Source: Chrysoperla carnea
Taxonomy: Eukaryota; Arthropoda; Insecta; Neuroptera; Chrysopidae
Assembly (NCBI RefSeq): GCF_905475395.1
Contig: NC_058342.1
Span: forward strand, 36,538,140 to 36,602,139
Direction: 5' to 3'
DNA: 64,000 bases
Of this stretch, positions 4,593 through 50,625 are shown piece by piece (position 1 is the first letter of the stretch; every line of letters begins with the position of its first letter). The translations under genes and the position numbers were made by a program. The notes under the pieces are model-generated. The model was not told the origin of the DNA. It ran no database searches and saw only the letters and a program-made list of their open reading frames with translations.

Positions 4593-5071
4593 GGGAAAGC
4601 AAACAATTGATTGAATTAATTGTTGAAATATCATGTATAGACAGGATTTATTACGCAATCGTTTGTTTTTTTTCCATGTAGGTATGGAAAGATAGCCACT
4701 CTTAGATATTCCCATAATTTGGACCCTCACGGGTAAACAGTGATGTTTACAAAAAAATATTTTAAACAAAAGTTGTTTATTTTTTATAAGGAACATTTTT
4801 TACATTTAAACTTTTGTTCTATCTCTAACGGTTTACAAGATGGGTTCTACGGACCCAAGACCCAATTGACCTATGTTGTTCATTTACGAACTAGACCTCA
4901 CTTTTTACGTAATAAGCACGCTATAAAAATTTCAGCTTGATATCTCTTTTCATTTTTGAATTATCGTGCTTACAGACACACAGACGGACAGACAACCGGA
5001 AATGGACTAATTTTTGGTCTTAGGACTAAACTTAGTATACCTTGATATATTTCATATATACATGGTATAAA
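4593..5071 (+). repeat. Rep-A element copy, near full length
   Basis: Starts with AACAATTGATTGAATTAATT and ATATCATGTATAGACAG and ends TATACATGGTATAA, so it is the most complete copy. The left ATA(C/T)CATGTATA and right TATACATGGTAT motifs are mutually inverted. The 66-residue frame at 4740-4940 is not conserved open elsewhere. Confidence 0.75.
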
Positions 5072-10504: not shown

Positions 10505-11145
10505 TGAAAGCATGTAATCCTACTAAATTTGGGCCATACTTTTAAAATTTTTGGTCAAAATTAACCTAGCACTAATAGGTTTCAAGAATGTGGAAGTCTG
10601 GTTTCGGAATTAAGCACATACATGGTAACTAGCGAAAAAGTGACATCACAGCTGAAAAGAATGACCCAAAATTAGTGGGTTTCAAAAAAAATTCCAATAA
10701 GATCGGATCAAAATTGTCTGTGTTATTAAAAAAATCGAATTTTTGAACTTGATGACGTCATCAAAATTCAAAATATTTAATTTTGCTCTATTACATCGAA
10801 ATTTTATCCAATTTTGATCAACAAAGTATGTAATCCTACTAAATTTGGGCCATACTTTTCAAATTTGTGGTCAAAATTAACCTAGCTCTATTAGATTTCA
10901 AGAATGTGGAGGTCTGGTCCCGGAATTAAGCACAAAAGTGATAACTAGCGAAAAACTAACATCACAGCTGAAAAGAATGACCCAAAATTAGTGGGTTTCA
11001 AAAAAAATTCCAATAAGATCGGATGAAAATTGGCTGTGTTATTAAAAAAATCGAATTTTTGAACTTGATGACGTCATCAAAATCCAAAAAATTTAATTTT
11101 GCTCTATTACATCAAAATTTTATTAAATTTTGATAAACAAAGTAA
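10505..11145 (+). repeat. Two-unit tandem repeat, period 316 bp
   Basis: TGTAATCCTACTAAATTTGG occurs at 10513 and 10829 and the following ~300 bp match closely, including AACTTGATGACGTCATCAAA in both. Non-coding. Confidence 0.85.
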
Positions 11146-18905: not shown

Positions 18906-19678
18906 ACTTGACTTATGATTATGATTTGATGAAAAGAGGGCGTCAATTAGTTGTACATTGTCATACTTATTAACAAATCTCACTTGTGTACGATACGGTT
19001 GTGTACCTCAGACCTCTGTCATATCACTTTACTAAAAATTTTAATATTCAAAAACTCAACGTCGCGTCACTATAAAAAGTCAATATTTATCGTTTAGTAA
19101 AAGTTGTTTTAGATGCAAAAAATAAATTTTAATCAAATTTTTGTGTACAGTGAATGTAAGTAATTGTGATAAAACCAGGGCAATAAGGCTAAATAGGCTA
19201 TAACTCGGCGCGAACATTTTTAATGGGGGACAATTGTTTATGTTTTTATAAGAACCAATTGAATTGTCTTTTAACGATCGGACTTCGAAGATTAGGTTTA
19301 CTCACTAAAATAGGTTTTCCGTAGAAAACATAACTCCCTCATTTTCGATTGAAATTTTTGCCCTAATCACAGGGCAATAGGTTTACAGCCTCCACTCAAT
19401 TTAATTTTGGAATCTATTTCAAAATTCCTCTTCCAAAATTAAGACAATTTTTTGAATTAACAGGCGTTATTTATAATTTTTAATTTTGAGTAACTGCTAG
19501 TATTTTTATAACTTCTAACTGACGTATGAGCTAAACTATTATCAAGTTTCATTAAAATCCATTTAGTAGTTTTTGAAATCGTCCAGTGAAACGGGCAAGT
19601 TACTGCTAGGGCGTGATGTTATAAAGCCTTTACACTTGCTCGATAAATGAGCTTTCCAACACTAGAAATAATTTTTCA

Positions 19679-20025
19679 ATTAGATATTATAAATGTGAAA
19701 GTAAGAATGTTTGTTTGTTTGTTATGCTTTCACGCAAAAACTAACGAATGGATTTAAATGAAACTGTATAACAATATAGCTCATAGATCAGAGTAACACA
19801 TAAGCTATAATTTACAAAGATATATTAACAAAAATTTTGCTACTCCATCTATGAGTATCATTTTGAAGCTATGAAATTAAAAATTTCCGAAAAAATTTTA
19901 AATAGTATATGTAAAAAAATTCATAGCCATCTTTTCTGAAGTATTCAATGAATTATGACTATTTTACACTTTAATAAATTGAAAACTGTGCATATATTAT
20001 GGCTGTGTAAAACAATCCCTTCGAG
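19679..20025 (+). repeat. R3 element, short-core copy
   Basis: Left part TATAAATGTGAAAGTAAGAA and ACGCAAAAACTAACGAATGG, right part CATCTTTTCTGAAGTATTCA and GGCTGTGTAAAACAATCC. The interior holds no tandem array. Resembles sequences common in insect genomes that some authors place with Helitrons; that link is unproven here. Confidence 0.65.
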
Positions 20026-20714
20026 TTTTATGAAAGGGGAATAAGTGAGATCAAGATAGGTAGAAGTTAGTTTAAGTATAAAAACATTCTGCAAAATTAC
20101 TCAAATCGAGTTTTGAAACAATCTTTAATTGACGCCCTGGTTTTACAACAATTAGTTTACTGACGTAATTTTATATAAACAAGTGGACGTCATAAAAACA
20201 AAACAATAAATAAAGTATTTTTTTTATTTGGTAAAAAATAATTGCTTCATATGCAGAAAATTAAATTAAAAGTTATTGTGTTACAGTGTCTGTAAGTAAT
20301 AACTATGTGTTTATGATAGAACAAAATGAATTCAGTGACGTACAAAGTGATATATACTAATTAATGAATTCGTAATTAGATATTATGATAATTAATAAAA
20401 ATGTGGACATTGGGTATAAAACAAGTTATTATAAATGATCATTAAATAACATAAACAATATATAGTCCATGCGCGCTGCGCTGCAGGTGCAAATGTTTTT
20501 TTTTTAATAAAAATATACTTGATTGTGGACCGTGAAAGATACTTACTTTGATATCGAAAGTTGTTTTCAACTCAACAGATTTCTAAATCTTTTTTTGTTA
20601 AAGTACTTAAAATATTACACCTGGATTTTAATTTGAATCATTATACGGGGCACGCAGTGGAGTTTTTATAACAAATTTCTGGGAAAAATATAATGAAGGG
20701 ATTTTTATGCTCAA

Positions 20715-27057: not shown

Positions 27058-27448
27058 TACACTCTCAAGGGTAAACAGTGTTGTTTACGAAAAAATGTTT
27101 CAAACAAAAGTTGTTTATGTTTTTTATAAGGAACTTTCTTTATATTTAAACTCTTTTCTATCTCTAACGGTTTAAAAGATGGGTCCTACGAACCCAAGCC
27201 CCAATTGACCTATGTTGATCATTTACGAACTTGACCTCACTTTTTACGTCCTCAACACGCTATAAAAATTTCAGCTTGATATTTCTTTTCGTTTTTGAAT
27301 AATCGTGATGACAGACAGACAGACAACCGGAAATGGACTAATTAGATTGATTTTATGAACACCTATACCAAAATTTTGTTCATAGCATTAATATTTTTAA
27401 ACGTTACAAACTTGGGACTAAACTTAGTATACCTTTGTATATTTCTGT
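27058..27448 (+). repeat. Rep-A element copy
   Basis: Starts at GTAAACAGTGTTGTTTACGA and ends GTATACCTTTGTATATTTC. Lies directly behind a SINE A. Confidence 0.7.
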
Positions 27449-27785
27449 CGTTAGAAATGATTTTGACTGTACATTGGCTTAGTATGATAATGATGTATAT
27501 TTTAATAAAATTAAATATTGATTTTCATTGTTTGTGGTAATTGGAACACCCGTTATGATAGAAAAAAATAACAATGTCAGTTCTGTAAGTGAACAACGAA
27601 CGACGAACAGACGCACAGACGAACAGTAGTCAGAGATAGGAGTCGGCAACAGTGAAACAATAAAAGTTGTAGCACACAAGAAAAACCATTTTCATATCAT
27701 TTGTACATAAAAAGAAAATTAACTGTAGATATTTAATTATATAGAATATTATTCAACTTTCTCTGTCCAGTTAAATCTGGTTTGC

Positions 27786-28020
27786 GTCGTTTACGAAAAA
27801 ATGTTTCAAACAAAAGTTGTCTATTTTTTTACATTTCAAATTTTGTTATTCAGTAACGATTTACAAGATGAGTCTTACGAACTCAAGACCCAATTGACCT
27901 ATTTTACTCATTTACGAACTCGACCTCACTTTTCAGACAACCGGAAATGGACTAATTAAGTGATTTTATGAATACCTATACCAAAATTTACGATTACGAT
28001 TAAACTTAGTATACCTTGAT
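27786..28020 (+). repeat. Rep-A element, internally deleted copy
   Basis: Same landmarks, but the segment between the ACCTCACTTTT and CAGACAACCGG motifs is deleted. Joins the R3 element at 28021. Confidence 0.65.
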
Positions 28021-28199
28021 ATCTCTATCTCTATATATTATAAATGCGAAAGTAAGCATGTTTGTTTCTTTGTTTGTTACGCTTTCAAACTAAAACTAGC
28101 GAATGGTTTTTAATAAAACTGTACGTCAATATAGCTTATACTTCAGAATAACACATGAGATATAATTTATAAAGATATATTATTATTATTATTATTATA

Positions 28200-28890
28200 T
28201 TAATGTTTCCATACAATCTCTCTCCTTTTCGAAGGGGTACCCCTTTGAAAAAATCGAAAAAATCAGAAAATTTTTTTTTCTTTCGGAATTCGATAAAACT
28301 TAGTTTCTAAGGTAAGTTTGACCCAAAAAGTTCAAAAATCCTATTTATTTGACGATTAGATGAATAGTTTACGAGATATGCATTGTAATCTGTCTGATTA
28401 TAGCGTTTTCTCAGAAATTATGATTCCAATCGACAAATGGACACGATTTTTGAATTTTTTGGGTCAAAATTACCTTATAAACTAAGTTTTATCGAAATCG
28501 GAAATTTAAAATTTTTCTCGATTTTTTGCAAATTTTTTTAAGGGGTACCCCTTTAAAAAAATCGAAAAAATCGAAAAATGTAATTTTTTTCGGAAATCGA
28601 TAAAACTTAGTTTCTTAGGTAAGTTTGACCCAAAAAGTTCAAAAAACCTATTTATTTGACGATTAGATGAATAGTTTACGAGATATGCGCTGAAATCTGT
28701 CTGATTATAGCGTTTTCTCAGAAATTATGATTCCAATCGTCAAATGGACACGATTTTTGAATTCTTTGGGTCAAAATTACCTTATAAACTAAGTTTTATC
28801 GAAATTGGAAACAAAAACTTTTTTTACACTTTTTGCAATTTGTAAAAATCGAAAAAATCATAAAAAATTCAAAAAAACACAATTTTTGTA
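28200..28890. repeat. Palindromic ~308 bp satellite inside R3
   Basis: Two centres GGGGTACCCC at 28234-28243 and 28542-28551 (308 bp apart). Arms either side are inverted copies (GTCAAAATTACCTTATAAACT versus AGTTTCTTAGGTAAGTTTGAC). Confidence 0.85.
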
Positions 28891-28896
28891 ATTTTT

Positions 28897-28992
28897 GGTT
28901 GGGTTGGGTTGGGTTAGGTTGGGTTGGGTTGGGTTAGGTTGGGTTAGGTTGGGTTGGGTTAGGTTGGGTTAGGCTGGGTTAGGTTGGGTTGA
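28897..28992 (+). repeat. Interstitial TTGGG/TTAGG pentamer array
   Basis: About 19 consecutive pentamers, mostly GGTTG with GGTTA interspersed. GGTTA is the canonical insect telomere unit in another phase. Confidence 0.85.
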
Positions 28993-29799
28993 GTGTGGGT
29001 GTGGATGTTGGTTTTGGTGTGGGAGTGGGTGTGGGTGTGGGAGTGGGAGTGGGAGTGGGTGTTGGTGTGGGAGTGGGTGTGGTTGTTGGAGTGGGCGTGG
29101 GTGTTATTATTAATATTATTATTATTATTATTATTTGACATTACCATAAATTACAGATTTCTGTAAAAGTAGTCATTTGACATTACCATAACTTACAGAT
29201 TCCTGTAAAAATAGTCAATATAAAATATTTCACGACCATCTTTTCTGATATACTCAATGAATAATTACGACTGTTATACATTTAAAAAAAATTGAAAACC
29301 ATACATATATTTTACCTGTGTAAAACAATCCTTACCATTATGTGGCTTGGGTTGAGTGTACAATGTGATTGTACTGTTGATTTATTCAATTAGTTTCATC
29401 TAGTTTAATTACAAAACGGAAATGATTTATAGTGTACTACATTGGTCGGTGCCCGTGCTCACATCAGTACATCACTTCCATGCTACACCACTCAAGTTGT
29501 TCCCCCCATCAAAGAAAAATATTTTTTCCTTATGTTATTTCCTTTTGATAGTATTTATTAAATCCAGTCAAACGAGTTCTAATCGATATCAAATCAATTT
29601 TATATCAAATAAACAACTTTCTTTATTACATTTTTATTTATTTGCGATTATGTATCATCTCCTTTTTCGAATTTTTTTTTTATACCCTGTGTATATTATT
29701 AAATGCACAAGGTATAATTTTTTGCAAAATTTTTCTTCTCATAGATTTGAACGAAGTCATTTGGATTTTAATCAAAAAACAAGTGAAAAAAAAAACAAT

Positions 29800-30215
29800 T
29801 GAATGAGTTAATTGTTAAAATACCATGTGTATACAGTGTTGATTAGACTGTCACATTACACATACATACATGTCACACATATATGACTGATGTAGCAATA
29901 CAACATACATACTATACAATTTGCGTATAATATGCGCTCTCACGGGTAAACAGTGATGTTTACGAAAAAATGTTTCAAACAAAAGTTGTTTATTTTTTTA
30001 TAAGAAACATTTTTTACATTTAAACTTTTGTTCTATCTCTAACGGTTTACAAGGTGAGTCTTATGGACCCAAGACCTTGACCTATGCTGCTCATTTACGA
30101 ACTCGATCTCACTTTTTACGTTCTTAGTACGCTCAGCTTGATATCTCTTTTCGTTTTTGAGTTATCGTGTTGTCAAACGGACAGACAGACAACCGAAAAT
30201 GGATTAATTAAGTGA
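29800..30215 (+). repeat. Rep-A element copy
   Basis: Starts AACAATTGAATGAGTTAATT, then ATACCATGTGTATACAGTG; ends in GGATTAATTAAGTGATTTTG without the terminal TATACATGG. Confidence 0.7.
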
Positions 30216-30744
30216 TTTTGTCGTTCGTACTACCTTAAAATTGTCAAAAATTCACTTTGGACATGCATACTACCTTTTACGATTTTTATTTCAAGTGAAC
30301 TTTATACGCATTGCTTAATTTTTTTATAAAAAAGGTTAAAAAAAATAAATTTTGCTTGGAATTATTTTTTTTAATTTGAAACTAAGCAATTTTAACATTT
30401 TGTGTGTACACATATAATTTGGTAATATAATAATTGGGTTTTTCCCCCCTTTTAAAAATTTTATAAGACGTGTTCACCTTGAAAACGACCGTTCCAAAGT
30501 ATTCTATTACCTAAAAAAATAAATATATATATATATCGCAATACGATTTTTTTTTTGATAGAATCAAAGATTTTTTTATATTTGAAAAATTTTATACTTT
30601 TACGATTACATAACACATTTTTATTTGTTTTGTAAATACAAAGAAAAAAATTTAATCATTGTTTATACAGTTCAATTCAGAAAACTTGAACAAACGTCTA
30701 TATAAGGTGGTCAGTTTTTAAAGCTTTATCTCTTTTTTAGAATT

Positions 30745-32216: not shown

Positions 32217-35200
32217 TTTTCCACATCGAATGGAACGGACATCGTCTGTGGCAGCCGTGACAATGTTCTCACCAGGTCAAACATACGTTCCAAGTCAATC
32301 ATACATTCAAGCTCAAAACTATCAAGTACCAACGTACCCAAACATCATGAAAAGTTATCCTGGATCCGAGACACAAAATGTTGCATTCATACAAAGTCCA
32401 ACACCGACAATCCACAAACAACAATCCATACGGAACGTAAGCGGTGAAATGAAACGTAATCGGACACAAACCGGCTACGAACTGTCACAAGATTTATTGG
32501 ACAAACAAATTGAAATGTTGGAACGAAAATATGGTGGTGTGAAAGCACGTAAAGCTGCGCTAACAATCCAAAGAGCTTTTAGACGATACACATTATTAAA
32601 AAAATTCGCAGCAATTACAGCTATGGCCAAAGCAGAAAAACGACTATGTCGTAGATTACCAAATATGGTTGAAGCTACCAATGAATCACTACATATGAAC
32701 AGTGTTGGGGCACCGATTGATCCAAATCGACGGGTCAAAAGTCCTGAGGGTGATCATACACAGACATATGCAAAGTAAGTTTTACACTTTTAATTTATTA
32801 AAAGCTTATTGAAAGAATGGGCTGTTTCTGCCCTCTGCCCTTCTTGAACTCTGCTACTTGCAAATGAAGCTTTTATCGAGGCAGTTTGTATTTGTGTGGG
32901 CAGTGAATGTCTTCAGGTGTCTTCAGATTCGAGGTCAGGAAGAATGCAAAACTTTTAACGCTTTCTTACTGAGGCTTCATTAAAAATCATTAGATCCAAT
33001 GACTGGGCTAAGGATCCGAGAATTATATACCCTGTAAGCTTTTCTGGATACAAATAACGATAGTGTGGAATCATCGATGATCCACAAAACGTTGAATGAT
33101 TCATTTGGGTCTGATTCAATAGGACTTATTACAGACAGAGGGGCGTTTGATTTGAAAAACTGCCAAAATCTTTACGCGTTAGGGAATTTTGCGATTCTGA
33201 ACATATTTTTGAGTCCTGGCCGTTGAGTTGCCTTAGCAAATAATTTTGAACCGAATCTGAGCCAAATAAACTATTTGTACATATTTGGCCCTGACAGAGC
33301 CCTTCGACAAATAGACAAAAGCTTTTAACGTTTGTTAATAGATAGCTTTAAAGCTCATTTTAATAAAATATCTTTTCTAAATTTTCAGTACGTACGAAGC
33401 ATGTAATAATATAAACAATAATCCATCATCAAGGCCGGTTCGTTCAATGTCGTTACGAGAACGTCGAAATTTGGATATGAGTCAATTGCCACGAAGTCAG
33501 TCAGGAACAGCCACCACATGTTGGGGTAATTATGTGGGAACATATTATGTACAACGACAGGATAACATAAACGAGGTATGTATTTTATTTTTGTCTTCTG
33601 GATTTGTTTTTGGATTGAAACACATTTTTTGGATTTTTTGTCTTTTGTTCGATTTTCAAAATCGGTAGTCTTGAAATTGGATCTATTTTTGGATTATTTA
33701 ATATTATTAAGACCCTAATCATACAAAAATTTAGTTAATTAAACAATTTAATGAGTAAGGAGTAGTTTTTGAGATATAGCCAAAAATGGCGCCGAAATTT
33801 TTTTCTTCGTGTATGGTTTCAAGCGACATTTCAAAAACTAGTCGTCCAATCACTAAATGCACCCAATTTTTGTAATTTTTGGACCAAAATTACCTTTGAA
33901 ACTAAGTTTTATCAAATTCCGAATCAAAAAAAATTTTTCGATTTTCTCGATTTTTTCGAAGGGGTACCCCTTGAAAAAATTCAAAAAAATCGAAAATTTT
34001 TTTGTATTCTCGATTTCGATAAAAGTCTATATATAAGGTAATTTTGACCCTAAAATTGCAAAAATCGAGTTCATTTAACGATTAGGAAAATAGTTTTTGA
34101 GATATCGCGAATTTTGAAGTTATTTTGAATGATATCTCGAAAACTATCAGCTCAATCGTAAAGTACACTCGATTTTTGTGATTTTTGGACCAAAATTACC
34201 CCAGAAACTAAGTTTCATCAAATTCCGAATCAAAAAAAATTTTTCGATTTTCTCGATTTTTTCAAAGGGGTACCCCTTGAAAAAATTCCAAAAAATCGAA
34301 AAATATTTTATATTTTCGATTTCGATAAAAGTTTGTATATAAGGTAATTTTGACCCAAAAATTACAAAAATCGGGTTTATTTAACGATTAGGCAAGTATT
34401 TTTCGAGATATCGCTAATTTTGAAGCTATTTTCAGTGATATCTCGAAAACTATCAGGTCAATCGTTAAGTACACCCGATTTTTGTAATTTTTGGGCCAAA
34501 ATTACCCTAGAAACTAAGTTTCATCAAATTCCGAATCAAAAAAAATTTTTCGATTTTCTCGATTTTTTCACTGTTATTTGGAACGTTTTTGTTTTCAGGA
34601 TATGCTAAACAGTCCCGTAAATGTAAGTTCCTGTAAAGTATGTTCACCAAGTGGTGGTATCCCACCAAATATACATTGGACACGAACGCCAGAGAGTAGT
34701 TACTCTGGTGTGGGTGGTCCAAGTACACCCAACAATGTAATATATGCGCAAGCACGAATAAATCCACAATCATCACCGCAGACACCCCAACAGCTTATGG
34801 CACAGCAAAGTGCGCAGTACCAACAACAATTACAAGCGCAACAGTCTGCATCAGCGAAAAAAATCCCACCAGAAGTACCAAAACGAACTTCGAGTATATC
34901 ATCGAAATCAATGGAGCCACGATCGTATCGAACCGCCAGTGGGGGATTGAGTAAATGTGCTGATAATGGTAGCTTATCGAGTGTACAAAGTTCTGGCAGT
35001 GATAGTAGCATCTCGACAGATCGAGTTATGTGCGGTGATAGCAATTCAACCGGGTGAGTTTTCTAAAAATATTCTTAAATCTTCATCCCGCTACTTTATT
35101 TTGGAATAAGAAAGCTAAATTTATTAAGGGAGTAAGGGCATTAGGAAAGGAGTTCCATACATTAGAAAAGGAGTTCCATATCTTCCTCAAGTGCGTAACC

Positions 35201-38200
35201 CTACTCCCTTAAGGATTTTTAGAAACAAAATATTTACCAAATATGTAATAATTAATTTTGTACTTTTTGTTTATAGGGGTTGTTCATCGCCATTATGGAA
35301 ACGAAAAGGTTTAGGACATTCACAATCACCAGAAGCTGTTTCAGAAAGTAGTTTAATCGGTATATCGCATACATCGGCCTCTGTATACGCTTTAGAACAA
35401 CCCGAACAACCAATGTCTACCCCAATTAGTTATAAAGTATCGGAAACAGTACGCAAACGTCAATACAGAGTCGGATTAAATCTATTCAACAAGAAACCAG
35501 AACGTGGTATAACATATCTAATGCGTCGAGGTTTCCTTGAAAATTCACCAGAAGCTGTTGCACGATTTCTTATTTCACGTAAAGGCTTAAGTAAACAAAT
35601 GATTGGTGAATATTTAGGCAATTTACAAAATCAATTCAATATGGCAGTTTTAGAGTAAGTACCATTTTTTATTTATTTCTAACTTCAAAATAAGTTGCCC
35701 GTAATGTAATACCCATTGTAACGGAAATCTTCGCCCTGCTGGGAGGTGCCCAGATCTGTAACTCGAAAGGTTACAGCAAGGCGCATATCAGCATCTTCTC
35801 AGATAGTCAGACCGCTCTACGGGTCCTTGAAGCCTCAAGACTCCAATCAAGGATAGTTTATGAATGCTTCAAGGAGCTGATCTGGATTCCGACTCACTCT
35901 GGCGTTAAAGGGAATGAAGCAGCAGATTCGTTGGCACGAGAGGGGTCGTTTCAGACGCTCCTTTCACCTGAGCCTATCATTCCCATAGCAAGATGCTCTA
36001 TAATTTACCGAATCAAAGAATGGCTACGACAAGCCCATCTTGAATTTGTACGTGCAGAAATCTGCAGGGCGTTAGATTCAGAATGTCCGGGTTCGAAACC
36101 TTGGATCAATCGGAGAAGCTGTAGGCTTTCTGTGTGGCGTCTGGCCTAGAATCCTCTAGCTTCATTTGATTTTAAAAGCGCCTCCTACCCGAAAACTCCT
36201 CGTCTTGTGTTATTAATTGTATAAATTTGATATTTGTAGATGTTTTGCCCGTGAATTGGATTTATCTGGAATGCAAGTGGACGTTGCATTACGTAAATTC
36301 CAAGCATACTTCCGTATGCCAGGTGAAGCTCAAAAAATCGAACGTTTAATGGAAGTATTCTCGCAACGATATTGTCAATGTAATATCGATATTGTAACAC
36401 GTTTACGTTCACCAGACACAATATTCGTGCTAGCATTCGCCATCATCATGCTGAACACCGATCTACACACACCAAATCTAAAACCAGAACGACGTATGCG
36501 TCTGGACGATTTCATTAAAAATCTTCGCGGCATCGATGATTGTGGTGATATAGATCGTGACATGCTAGTCGGCATCTACGAACGTGTCAAAGCGAACGAA
36601 TTCAAACCAAGTTCAGATCATGTGACCCAAGTGATTAAAGTGCAAGCGACTATTGTGGGTAAAAAACCGAATATGGTGTTGCCACATCGACGTTTGGTCT
36701 GTTATTGTCGATTGTATGAGATTCCTGATATTAATAAGAAAGAACGACCTGGGGTCCATCAACGAGAGGTCTTCTTGTTTAATGATTTACTTGTGATCAC
36801 GAAAATTCTAAGTAAAAAGAAATCGTCTGTAACGTATACATTTCGACAGAGCTTTTCATTATGTGGTATGGTTGTTACTTTATTTGAAGTTCCACGTAAG
36901 TACTAATTTTTTTATTCTCATTGAAACCAATTACAATTTTGAATCCAAATTTAATTGAAATGAATTGGATGTAATTGGAAAAAAATTTCCAATTCATTCC
37001 GATTCAATCCAATAGAACTAGTCGGAAATTTCCAATTGGTTTCAATTCATGAATGGGATCGAATTGGAAATTTTATATTGGCTTGAATCGGAATTTAATA
37101 AGAATGGGTTGGAAATTTTAATCAGAATTGAATTGGACTTTTTTATCAGGGATATCCAAGTGTAATATTTGTTTCAAAGACTAATAAATAATGAATGTGA
37201 TTTGTTTTTTGTAGATTATCCTTTTGGAATACGTTTAGCTCAACGTGTCGATGACAAAGTACTTATTACATTTAATGCTCGTAACGAGCACGATCGTTGT
37301 AAATTCGCTGAAGATTTACGTGAATCCGTCTATGAAATGGACGAAATGGAGAATTTACGTATTGAAGCTGAATTAGAACGTCAAAAGTCTAGTCGTGGTG
37401 GTAATCGTTCTGGTGCGGAGAATCGCGATAGTGGTGTGGCCGATGTTGAAATATGCTCGTGTACTCAGGGTACAATTCTAGTCAAAGATGGTAATGGTGG
37501 GGATCGTACTGTTGTCCAAACACAACAGCCAACAAACGAACAAAGTCAAAGAGATGCACAACTTAAGAGAACTGCTCTCAGTAATTCTTTACTCGATATT
37601 CATGATCAATGTAAGTATCAATAACACCACCCACACCATTCACACCATTCAACTTTCATTCAACTTTCTTTTCAAATACAATCAAAAAGCTCAGAGAATG
37701 AGTTGGGCTGGGCACCAAAGCTTCATCACTCAGTTCATTACATGCTTTTTATCATTAGATGCTTTGTATTTAAATTGTCATCACTCTAGCTCAATTCGGA
37801 GGAACTTTGGAGATGCGTAAAAGTTTTTAAAATTGCAAAAAAGTGATATTTCGACATAAAAAAGGGAAAGGATTTGACTTCTTGAAGAGAGAGAAAGTTA
37901 AATTGTTAGGATTTGGTGGTGAATCGTCCCGTCCCCGTTTCCTAATAGTTCTTGGAATACTCTATAAATAAAGATATATTTATAGTTACAGGTGAAAAAC
38001 CACAAAGGAGGGGTAGTGTGGGATCATTAGACAGTGGAATGTCTGTATCGTTTCAACCGACAAGCTCATCGACACTATCGCGAATTGAATTCGGACAAGG
38101 CGGTCAAAAGCCAAAACCAATGAATCAACAGCAATCATTCCTTGGTGGTCTATTTCATAAACGTGAACGTAAATTATCTCGTACTGAGGATCCAACACAA

Positions 38201-50261: not shown

Positions 50262-50625
50262 ATCGTTCGGGAGCGAAGTATATCAGAAAAGATGGCTGTG
50301 AAATATTTTATAATGATTATTTTTACAGAAATCTGTAATTTATGGTAATGTCAAATGATTACTTTTACAGAAATCTGTAATTTATGGTAATGTCAAATGA
50401 CTACTTTTACAGAAATCTGTAATTTATGGTAATGTAAAATTAAATTAATTTTTAATTTTATTTTTTATTAATATATCTTTATAAATTATATCTCATGTGT
50501 TATTCTGAAGTATGAGCTATATTGCTGTACAGTTTCATTAAAAACCATTCGCTAGTTTTAGCGTGAAAGCGTAACAAACAAACAAACAAACATGCTTACT
50601 TTCTCATTTATAATATATAGAGATT
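50262..50625 (-). repeat. R3 element with a three-unit minisatellite
   Basis: Same left and right parts on the minus strand. The interior holds three ~46 bp units (about 50315-50445) with the palindromic core TTACAGATTTCTGTAA. Confidence 0.7.

Follow-up and report, generated by a model that had tools for sequence, protein, structure and literature searches.

R3, a putative non-autonomous Helitron family with a probably self-derived 42-bp array and a satellite block in one sampled copy

Three copies of an element, here called R3, lie in a 64-kb window (the whole stretch of DNA that was analysed; it belongs to contig C6, one of 337 in a 559-Mb genome), and the copy near 28 kb encloses a large block of satellite and simple repeats. 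The question raised by this locus is whether R3 transports such tandem DNA or is an element of a familiar kind, one copy of which has acquired a foreign block. We consider it highly probable that R3 is an ordinary insect Helitron with a 42-bp array derived from its own sequence, and that the block at 28 kb was a later, one-off gain.

Profile searches of the window bore out the earlier claim that both flanks are common to three copies. Left and right flank were each recovered three times, the left one also as a partial inverted fragment, and in every copy the right flank follows the left in a single orientation. Left flanks were located at 28026-28184 (+), 50625-50467 (-) and 19680-19829 (+), and right flanks at 29209-29335, 50322-50276 (first part only) and 19896-20023. 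Left-flank identity was 146/154 between the 28-kb and 50-kb copies, 124/145 between the 28-kb and 19.7-kb copies and 129/145 between the 50-kb and 19.7-kb copies. The partial left-flank fragment lies inverted at 19519-19582, about 100 bp upstream of the 19.7-kb copy. The three copies (R28, R50 and R19) are read as follows.

28028..29341, + strand: R28, a 3′-truncated, putatively non-autonomous Helitron of the R28/R50 subfamily with a foreign block of about 900 bp inside (delimited by its 5′ end and 3′ match)
28028..28185, + strand: left part of R28, with the 5′ terminus, a (TTTG)n microsatellite and a conserved stretch of about 100 bp
29217..29341, + strand: right part of R28, cut off ahead of the CTAG end
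50277..50623, - strand: R50, the second copy, with TC after A at its 5′ end and 3′-truncated after GATATACT (delimited by genomic relatives)
19679..20069, + strand: R19, of the other subfamily, with one unit-like interior segment, an eroded 5′ end and a 3′ truncation

The 5′ end of R28 is a TC directly preceded by A (junction 28027/28028), as in most sampled genomic copies, and its match to the 3′ part of the subfamily reaches TTACCATTAT and then ends, as judged by eye. With R50 as the query, genomic relatives matched until about base 354 and continued differently beyond; R19 stops near 20069 without a 3′ end. A shared CTRR end was not found in the window copies alone, because all three are 3′-truncated and lack the Helitron 3′ end, and the search for a target duplication around these truncated copies gave none that was clear. 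LINE-like 3′ ends (a label given by eye) occur at 2199-2380, 4872-5071, 27211-27450, 27900-28027 and 30090-30219, and one of them directly abuts the 5′ end of the 28-kb Helitron. The use of this adjoining LINE 3′ end to place the right boundary of the 28-kb copy was rejected, the remainder of the LINE being absent from the other side; its absence there is consistent with 3′ truncation.

The genome was then searched with three queries, and the genome counts given here rest on the best-scored places. With the 19.7-kb copy as the query, the best 40 of 5212 first-look candidates were scored, and each of the 39 other scored rows covered 326 or more of the 347 query bases, with identities of 79-85%; with the 50-kb copy, the best 40 of 2174 candidates were scored (50 match rows); and with the left flank alone, a query chosen to lower bias, the best 40 of 1198. 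Because of this scoring, carriers of the 28-kb block could be missed. The R19-type alignment comprised 20 genomic copies from the top of the match list, and the R28/R50-type sample 40 copies (L029-L068, L029 being the 50-kb copy itself). The left-flank search provided 35 inspected loci, namely the 28-kb copy plus 34 of the remaining 39 that were scored. R3 is a high-copy family.

Tabulating the genomic flanks, a check that the initial annotation had proposed, showed the right flank downstream and in the same orientation in 32 of the 34 left-flank-selected copies. This contradicts the notion, named there as grounds for refutation, that the flanks are usually not paired. The left-to-right gap measured 59-114 bases in 31 of these copies and 820 in one (L095); neither the right flank nor the unit described below was detected in L074, and L093 had two units with the right flank undetected. 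Over 58 loci, 7 of which duplicate others, there were 67 left-right pairs and 3 unpaired flanks.

The interiors of the three window copies had been described as completely different. This description was wrong, as a 42-bp unit is common to the 28-kb and 50-kb copies.

29133..29216, + strand: two 42-bp units in R28, the element's own tandem repeat
50312..50440, - strand: three 42-bp units in R50 (repeat and profile search)

The 50-kb copy does hold three units as stated, each being 42 bp long and not 46 bp. The 19.7-kb copy, taken to have no array, is not an empty site; it has the ordinary interior of the second subfamily with a single unit-homologous segment, and it was in the alignment of 20 genomic copies that one segment of the R19-type interior aligned with the 42-bp unit. 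Within the window alone the likeness of the R19 segment to the unit was suggestive (23-58 of 1000 shuffles and 87 of 3254 window tiles were as good). Among the 40 R28/R50-type copies, two units were counted in 9, three in 25, four in 4 and five in 2, with a bias from the query, which itself carried three units. Profile matches in the 34 left-flank-selected copies showed one unit in 16, two in 17 and none in one.

The units within an array are also ordered. At a marker base, A occupies the last unit in 29 of the 31 arrays that could be read there (9 others could not), and G stands in 58 of the 61 upstream units that could be read (2 could not); the 28-kb and 50-kb window copies show the same order. 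Since the last unit carries A and the upstream units G, the unit order is inherited, and the simplest account of the varying count is that upstream units are gained or lost. It is thus probable that the 42-bp array originated within R3 itself and moves along with it, the second of two array-origin scenarios discussed in the cited section of PMC7492417. The proposal that R3 carries and expands tandem DNA at one site holds for the 42-bp unit, in one to five copies, and does not extend to the large block.

The block itself consists of the following parts.

28177..28199, + strand: (ATT)n tract, left side of the block
28226..28897, + strand: palindromic 307-bp satellite, about two units and a partial third (full units 28226-28841)
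28897..28991, + strand: pentamer array of 12 GGTTG, 6 GGTTA and 1 GGCTG
28993..29103, + strand: G-rich hexamer array, GTGGGA/GTGGGT-like
29104..29136, + strand: (ATT)n tract, right side of the block

The palindromic satellite, the pentamers and (ATT)n are present inside the 28-kb copy as had been claimed, in a block of about 900 bp that contains hexamers too. Folded as DNA, the 307-bp unit pairs with itself at a z-score of -12 (0 of 100 shuffles as good), and its GGGGTACCCC junctions led us to consider a possible origin from a TA-target MITE. The satellite meets the pentamers at TTTTTGGTTGGG, a junction that would be compatible with slippage or with filler repair. The pentamers at 28897-28991 resemble TTAGG/TTGGG insect telomere repeats, here at an internal site, and the string TTAGGTTGGG occurs in a paper on Hymenoptera telomerase RNA (PMC9841428).

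At the position of the block, the 40 related copies carry an A-rich spacer, in L053 with a short AAT run; by eye, none of these spacers contains an (ATT)n tract as long as that at 28177-28199. The two (ATT)n tracts of the block are two of only four such tracts in the 64-kb window. Because (ATT)n stands on both sides of the block, the 40 relatives have the A-rich spacer and L095 offers a parallel (see below), the block appears to be a late one-off. The initial annotation had named independent insertion of arrays, with their own target duplications, as an outcome that would speak against its proposal; independent insertion is indeed favoured for the block, though the (ATT)n tracts show no clear-cut target duplication; owing to their low complexity, one would be indistinguishable from slippage. 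It is conceivable, though in our judgement improbable, that the A/T-rich spacer is a preferred acceptor in which simple repeats first expand and afterwards capture larger tandem blocks, telomere-like and palindromic satellite DNA among them, some of these being transposed onward.

A stronger role for R3 would be that of a satellite vehicle, in which large arrays repeatedly enter the spacer, are transposed and seed dispersed satellites. The 42-bp array does move with the element, and a large insert occupies the same spacer in 2 of the 35 left-flank-selected copies (the 28-kb copy and L095); further, group 2 of the oyster Cg_HINE elements combines related flanks with unrelated arrays, as described in the section cited of PMC7492417. 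However, the two inserts are unrelated. That in L095 (reverse strand, 324-789) is a discrete element of about 465 bp, running from TCTTAATATAT to GCCGCTAG with A before it and T after it, between two (TA)n tracts in the R3 spacer, and has the appearance of a nested Helitron belonging to a different family. The same sequence was found at one other place at 96-97% identity (L007 and L014 are this same place), where it abuts the 5′ side of another R3 copy. L095 shows an event parallel to that at 28 kb, with a different element in the same spacer.

The distribution of the satellite also argues against such transport. A second array was recovered by profile search in the window.

33708..34569, + strand: second palindromic satellite array, without R3 flanks

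Eight separate sites with the palindromic satellite were found in the DNA covered, 7 of them outside R3 and only that at 28 kb inside; four lie in the window and the others in L034, L036, L058 and L070, loci fetched for R3, so that the sites are not a random sample. The satellite in L070 lies beyond the right flank. Between the flanks, the satellite was found in 0 of the 34 left-flank-selected copies other than the 28-kb one, and no second carrier of the block appeared among the sampled copies. Identity was 91-92% within each array and 77-81% between the 28-kb and 34-kb arrays, for which reason the arrays appear to be locally grown. With the block in 0 of 34 other copies and 7 of 8 satellite sites outside R3, the suggested source of dispersed satellites finds no support, and we regard the vehicle reading as quite unlikely. 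A splice-acceptor-like site (by eye) is no more than about 40 bases from the end of the array at 33708-34569, which lies upstream of a Sec7-domain frame at 36217-36906.

The guess that R3 might be a Helitron was largely right. Canonical Helitrons have a TC start, a CTRR end and insertion between A and T (PMC4067079, with termini also in PMC6544945, in the parts cited), and when genomic copies were checked for such ends, these features were mostly present. In the alignment of 20 R19-type copies, similarity ends at TCCCTATATATT on the 5′ side, mostly after A, and at CTAG before T on the 3′ side. The 5′ end was detected in 18 of these 20 copies, with TC in 17/18 and a directly preceding A in 13/18, and the 3′ end in 17 of 20, with CTAG in 14/17 and T as the next base in 17/17. 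For the R28/R50 type, the 5′ end was detected in 38 of 40 copies (TC in 30/38, preceding A in 33/38) and the 3′ end in 32 of 40 (CTRR in 29/32, next base T in 32/32). Because TC and CTAG form part of the fuzzy motifs by which the ends were located, the counts for these two features are favoured; the outer A and T lie outside the motifs, and the alignments of R19-type copies show the same 5′ TC and 3′ CTAG boundaries as the motif search. R19-type copies with both ends (n = 16) measured 372-476 bases, with a median of 450, and R28/R50-type copies measured 447-606 bases, counted from the start of the left-profile match. Taken together, the comparisons support R3 as a family of non-autonomous Helitrons with at least two subfamilies.

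The 3′ hairpin that had been expected was unsupported by folding: between 44 and 292 of 300 shuffles did as well as the last 43 bases of the 16 full-length copies. An inverted repeat, GCCC...GGGC in one subfamily and ACCC...GGGT in the other, can be seen by eye about 10 bases before CTAG. Subterminal inverted repeats of the window copies were equalled by 74-488 of 500 shuffles, and an inverted repeat around the left microsatellite of the window copies was likewise unsupported (157-480 of 500 shuffles as good).

The missing support for a hairpin ahead of CTRR would suit an element of the Helentron or HINE type (DINE-1-like) instead of a canonical Helitron, and so would the tetranucleotide microsatellite and central tandem repeats, which match the descriptions of DINE-1 in the cited text of PMC2374699 and of HINE. 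Several of the 16 full-length R19-type copies even have an inverted match of 7-10 bases (TTACTTT) between their ends. But this match falls short of the described 11-15 bases and is mostly no better than in shuffled sequence (7 to 289 of 300 shuffles as good), the insertion is between A and T and not between T and T, and the ends are TC and CTAG. We thus hold an assignment to Helentrons to be very unlikely. An apparent pairing of unrelated pieces at the three loci, through chance or segmental duplication, as might be thought from a window with only three copies, has a negligible probability and was refuted by the genome copies, dozens of which on contigs C1-C6 keep the flank order, with ends that abut differing flanking DNA.

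For the Helitron reading with a self-derived array, the following course can be proposed. R3 presumably moves by rolling-circle transposition, with enzymes that would be supplied by an autonomous partner. In one subfamily, an interior segment of its own of about 40 bp may have given rise to the 42-bp tandem array, from 1 to 5 units, which transposes along with the element. The A-rich spacer adjoining the array can expand into simple repeats and accept nested insertions; in the 28-kb copy it is an (ATT)n tract that holds the dispersed palindromic satellite and the G-rich arrays. This block may have been gained by insertion or by filler-DNA repair, most likely once and in that copy only.

R3 is not a new kind of element, tandem arrays inside Helitrons and Helentrons having been described in Drosophila (PMC2374699), Lepidoptera (PMC4344730) and oyster (PMC7492417), according to the portions cited here. 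One close counterpart in description is the non-autonomous Helitron Hel-2 (BmHel-2 or MITE01) of Lepidoptera and insect viruses. According to the section cited of PMC4344730, it shares with R3 the 5′ TC, the 3′ CTAG, flanking A and T, a tetranucleotide microsatellite of variable length close to the 5′ end, and internal tandem arrays. The microsatellite is (TTTG)n in R3 and (CTGT)n in Hel-2, and a 3′ hairpin is reported for Hel-2 (same section of PMC4344730), whereas in R3 it was unsupported by folding; the likeness drawn here is one of description, membership of the Hel-2 family being set, in the text cited, at 65% identity or more to a 250-bp Hel-2 consensus. Scans by exact pattern gave no relatives of R3 in collections of viral contigs (five patterns), genome contigs (two patterns), phages and plasmids; the left-part motifs were among the patterns without a match in viral contigs. 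The exact 17-base 5′ motif was not found in the papers searched, and of 10 papers with a 9-base motif none was relevant, as judged by titles.

DINE-1 of Drosophila, as portrayed in the cited text of PMC2374699, resembles R3 in its conserved left and right blocks, in the tetranucleotide microsatellite of the left block and in a variable number of central repeats between the blocks; unlike R3, which inserts between A and T and whose ends give a match of 7-10 bases in several copies, it inserts at TT and has 13-bp subterminal inverted repeats. The Cg_HINE elements of the Pacific oyster likewise have related flanks and different tandem arrays, but are of the Helentron type with monomers averaging 140-180 bp, and their arrays recur in many copies (PMC7492417, section cited), whereas the large block of R3 was seen in one. 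For the insect Hel1A Helitrons, a stepwise gain of internal sequence by filler DNA has been proposed in the cited part of PMC6544945, and a gain of unrelated internal DNA of this kind is one possible route for the 28-kb block.

What R3 adds is a view, within one genome, of how a Helitron may generate a tandem array out of sequence of its own, one subfamily having a single segment and another 1-5 ordered units. A second lesson is that nested insertion or filler DNA, rather than satellite transport, can lie behind a striking composite copy.

As to the remaining content of the window, Rfam and tRNA scans found nothing. Seven reading frames were scanned; two of them gave no match, and the scan identified two TipE-like genes, a Sec7/IQ_SEC7_PH gene, a carnitine acyltransferase and an RNase H fragment. 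The TipE-like genes would suggest an arthropod source, most likely an insect. Another tandem pair lies at 10507-11144, with a 316-bp unit in two copies 92% alike, and is far less palindromic than the 307-bp unit.
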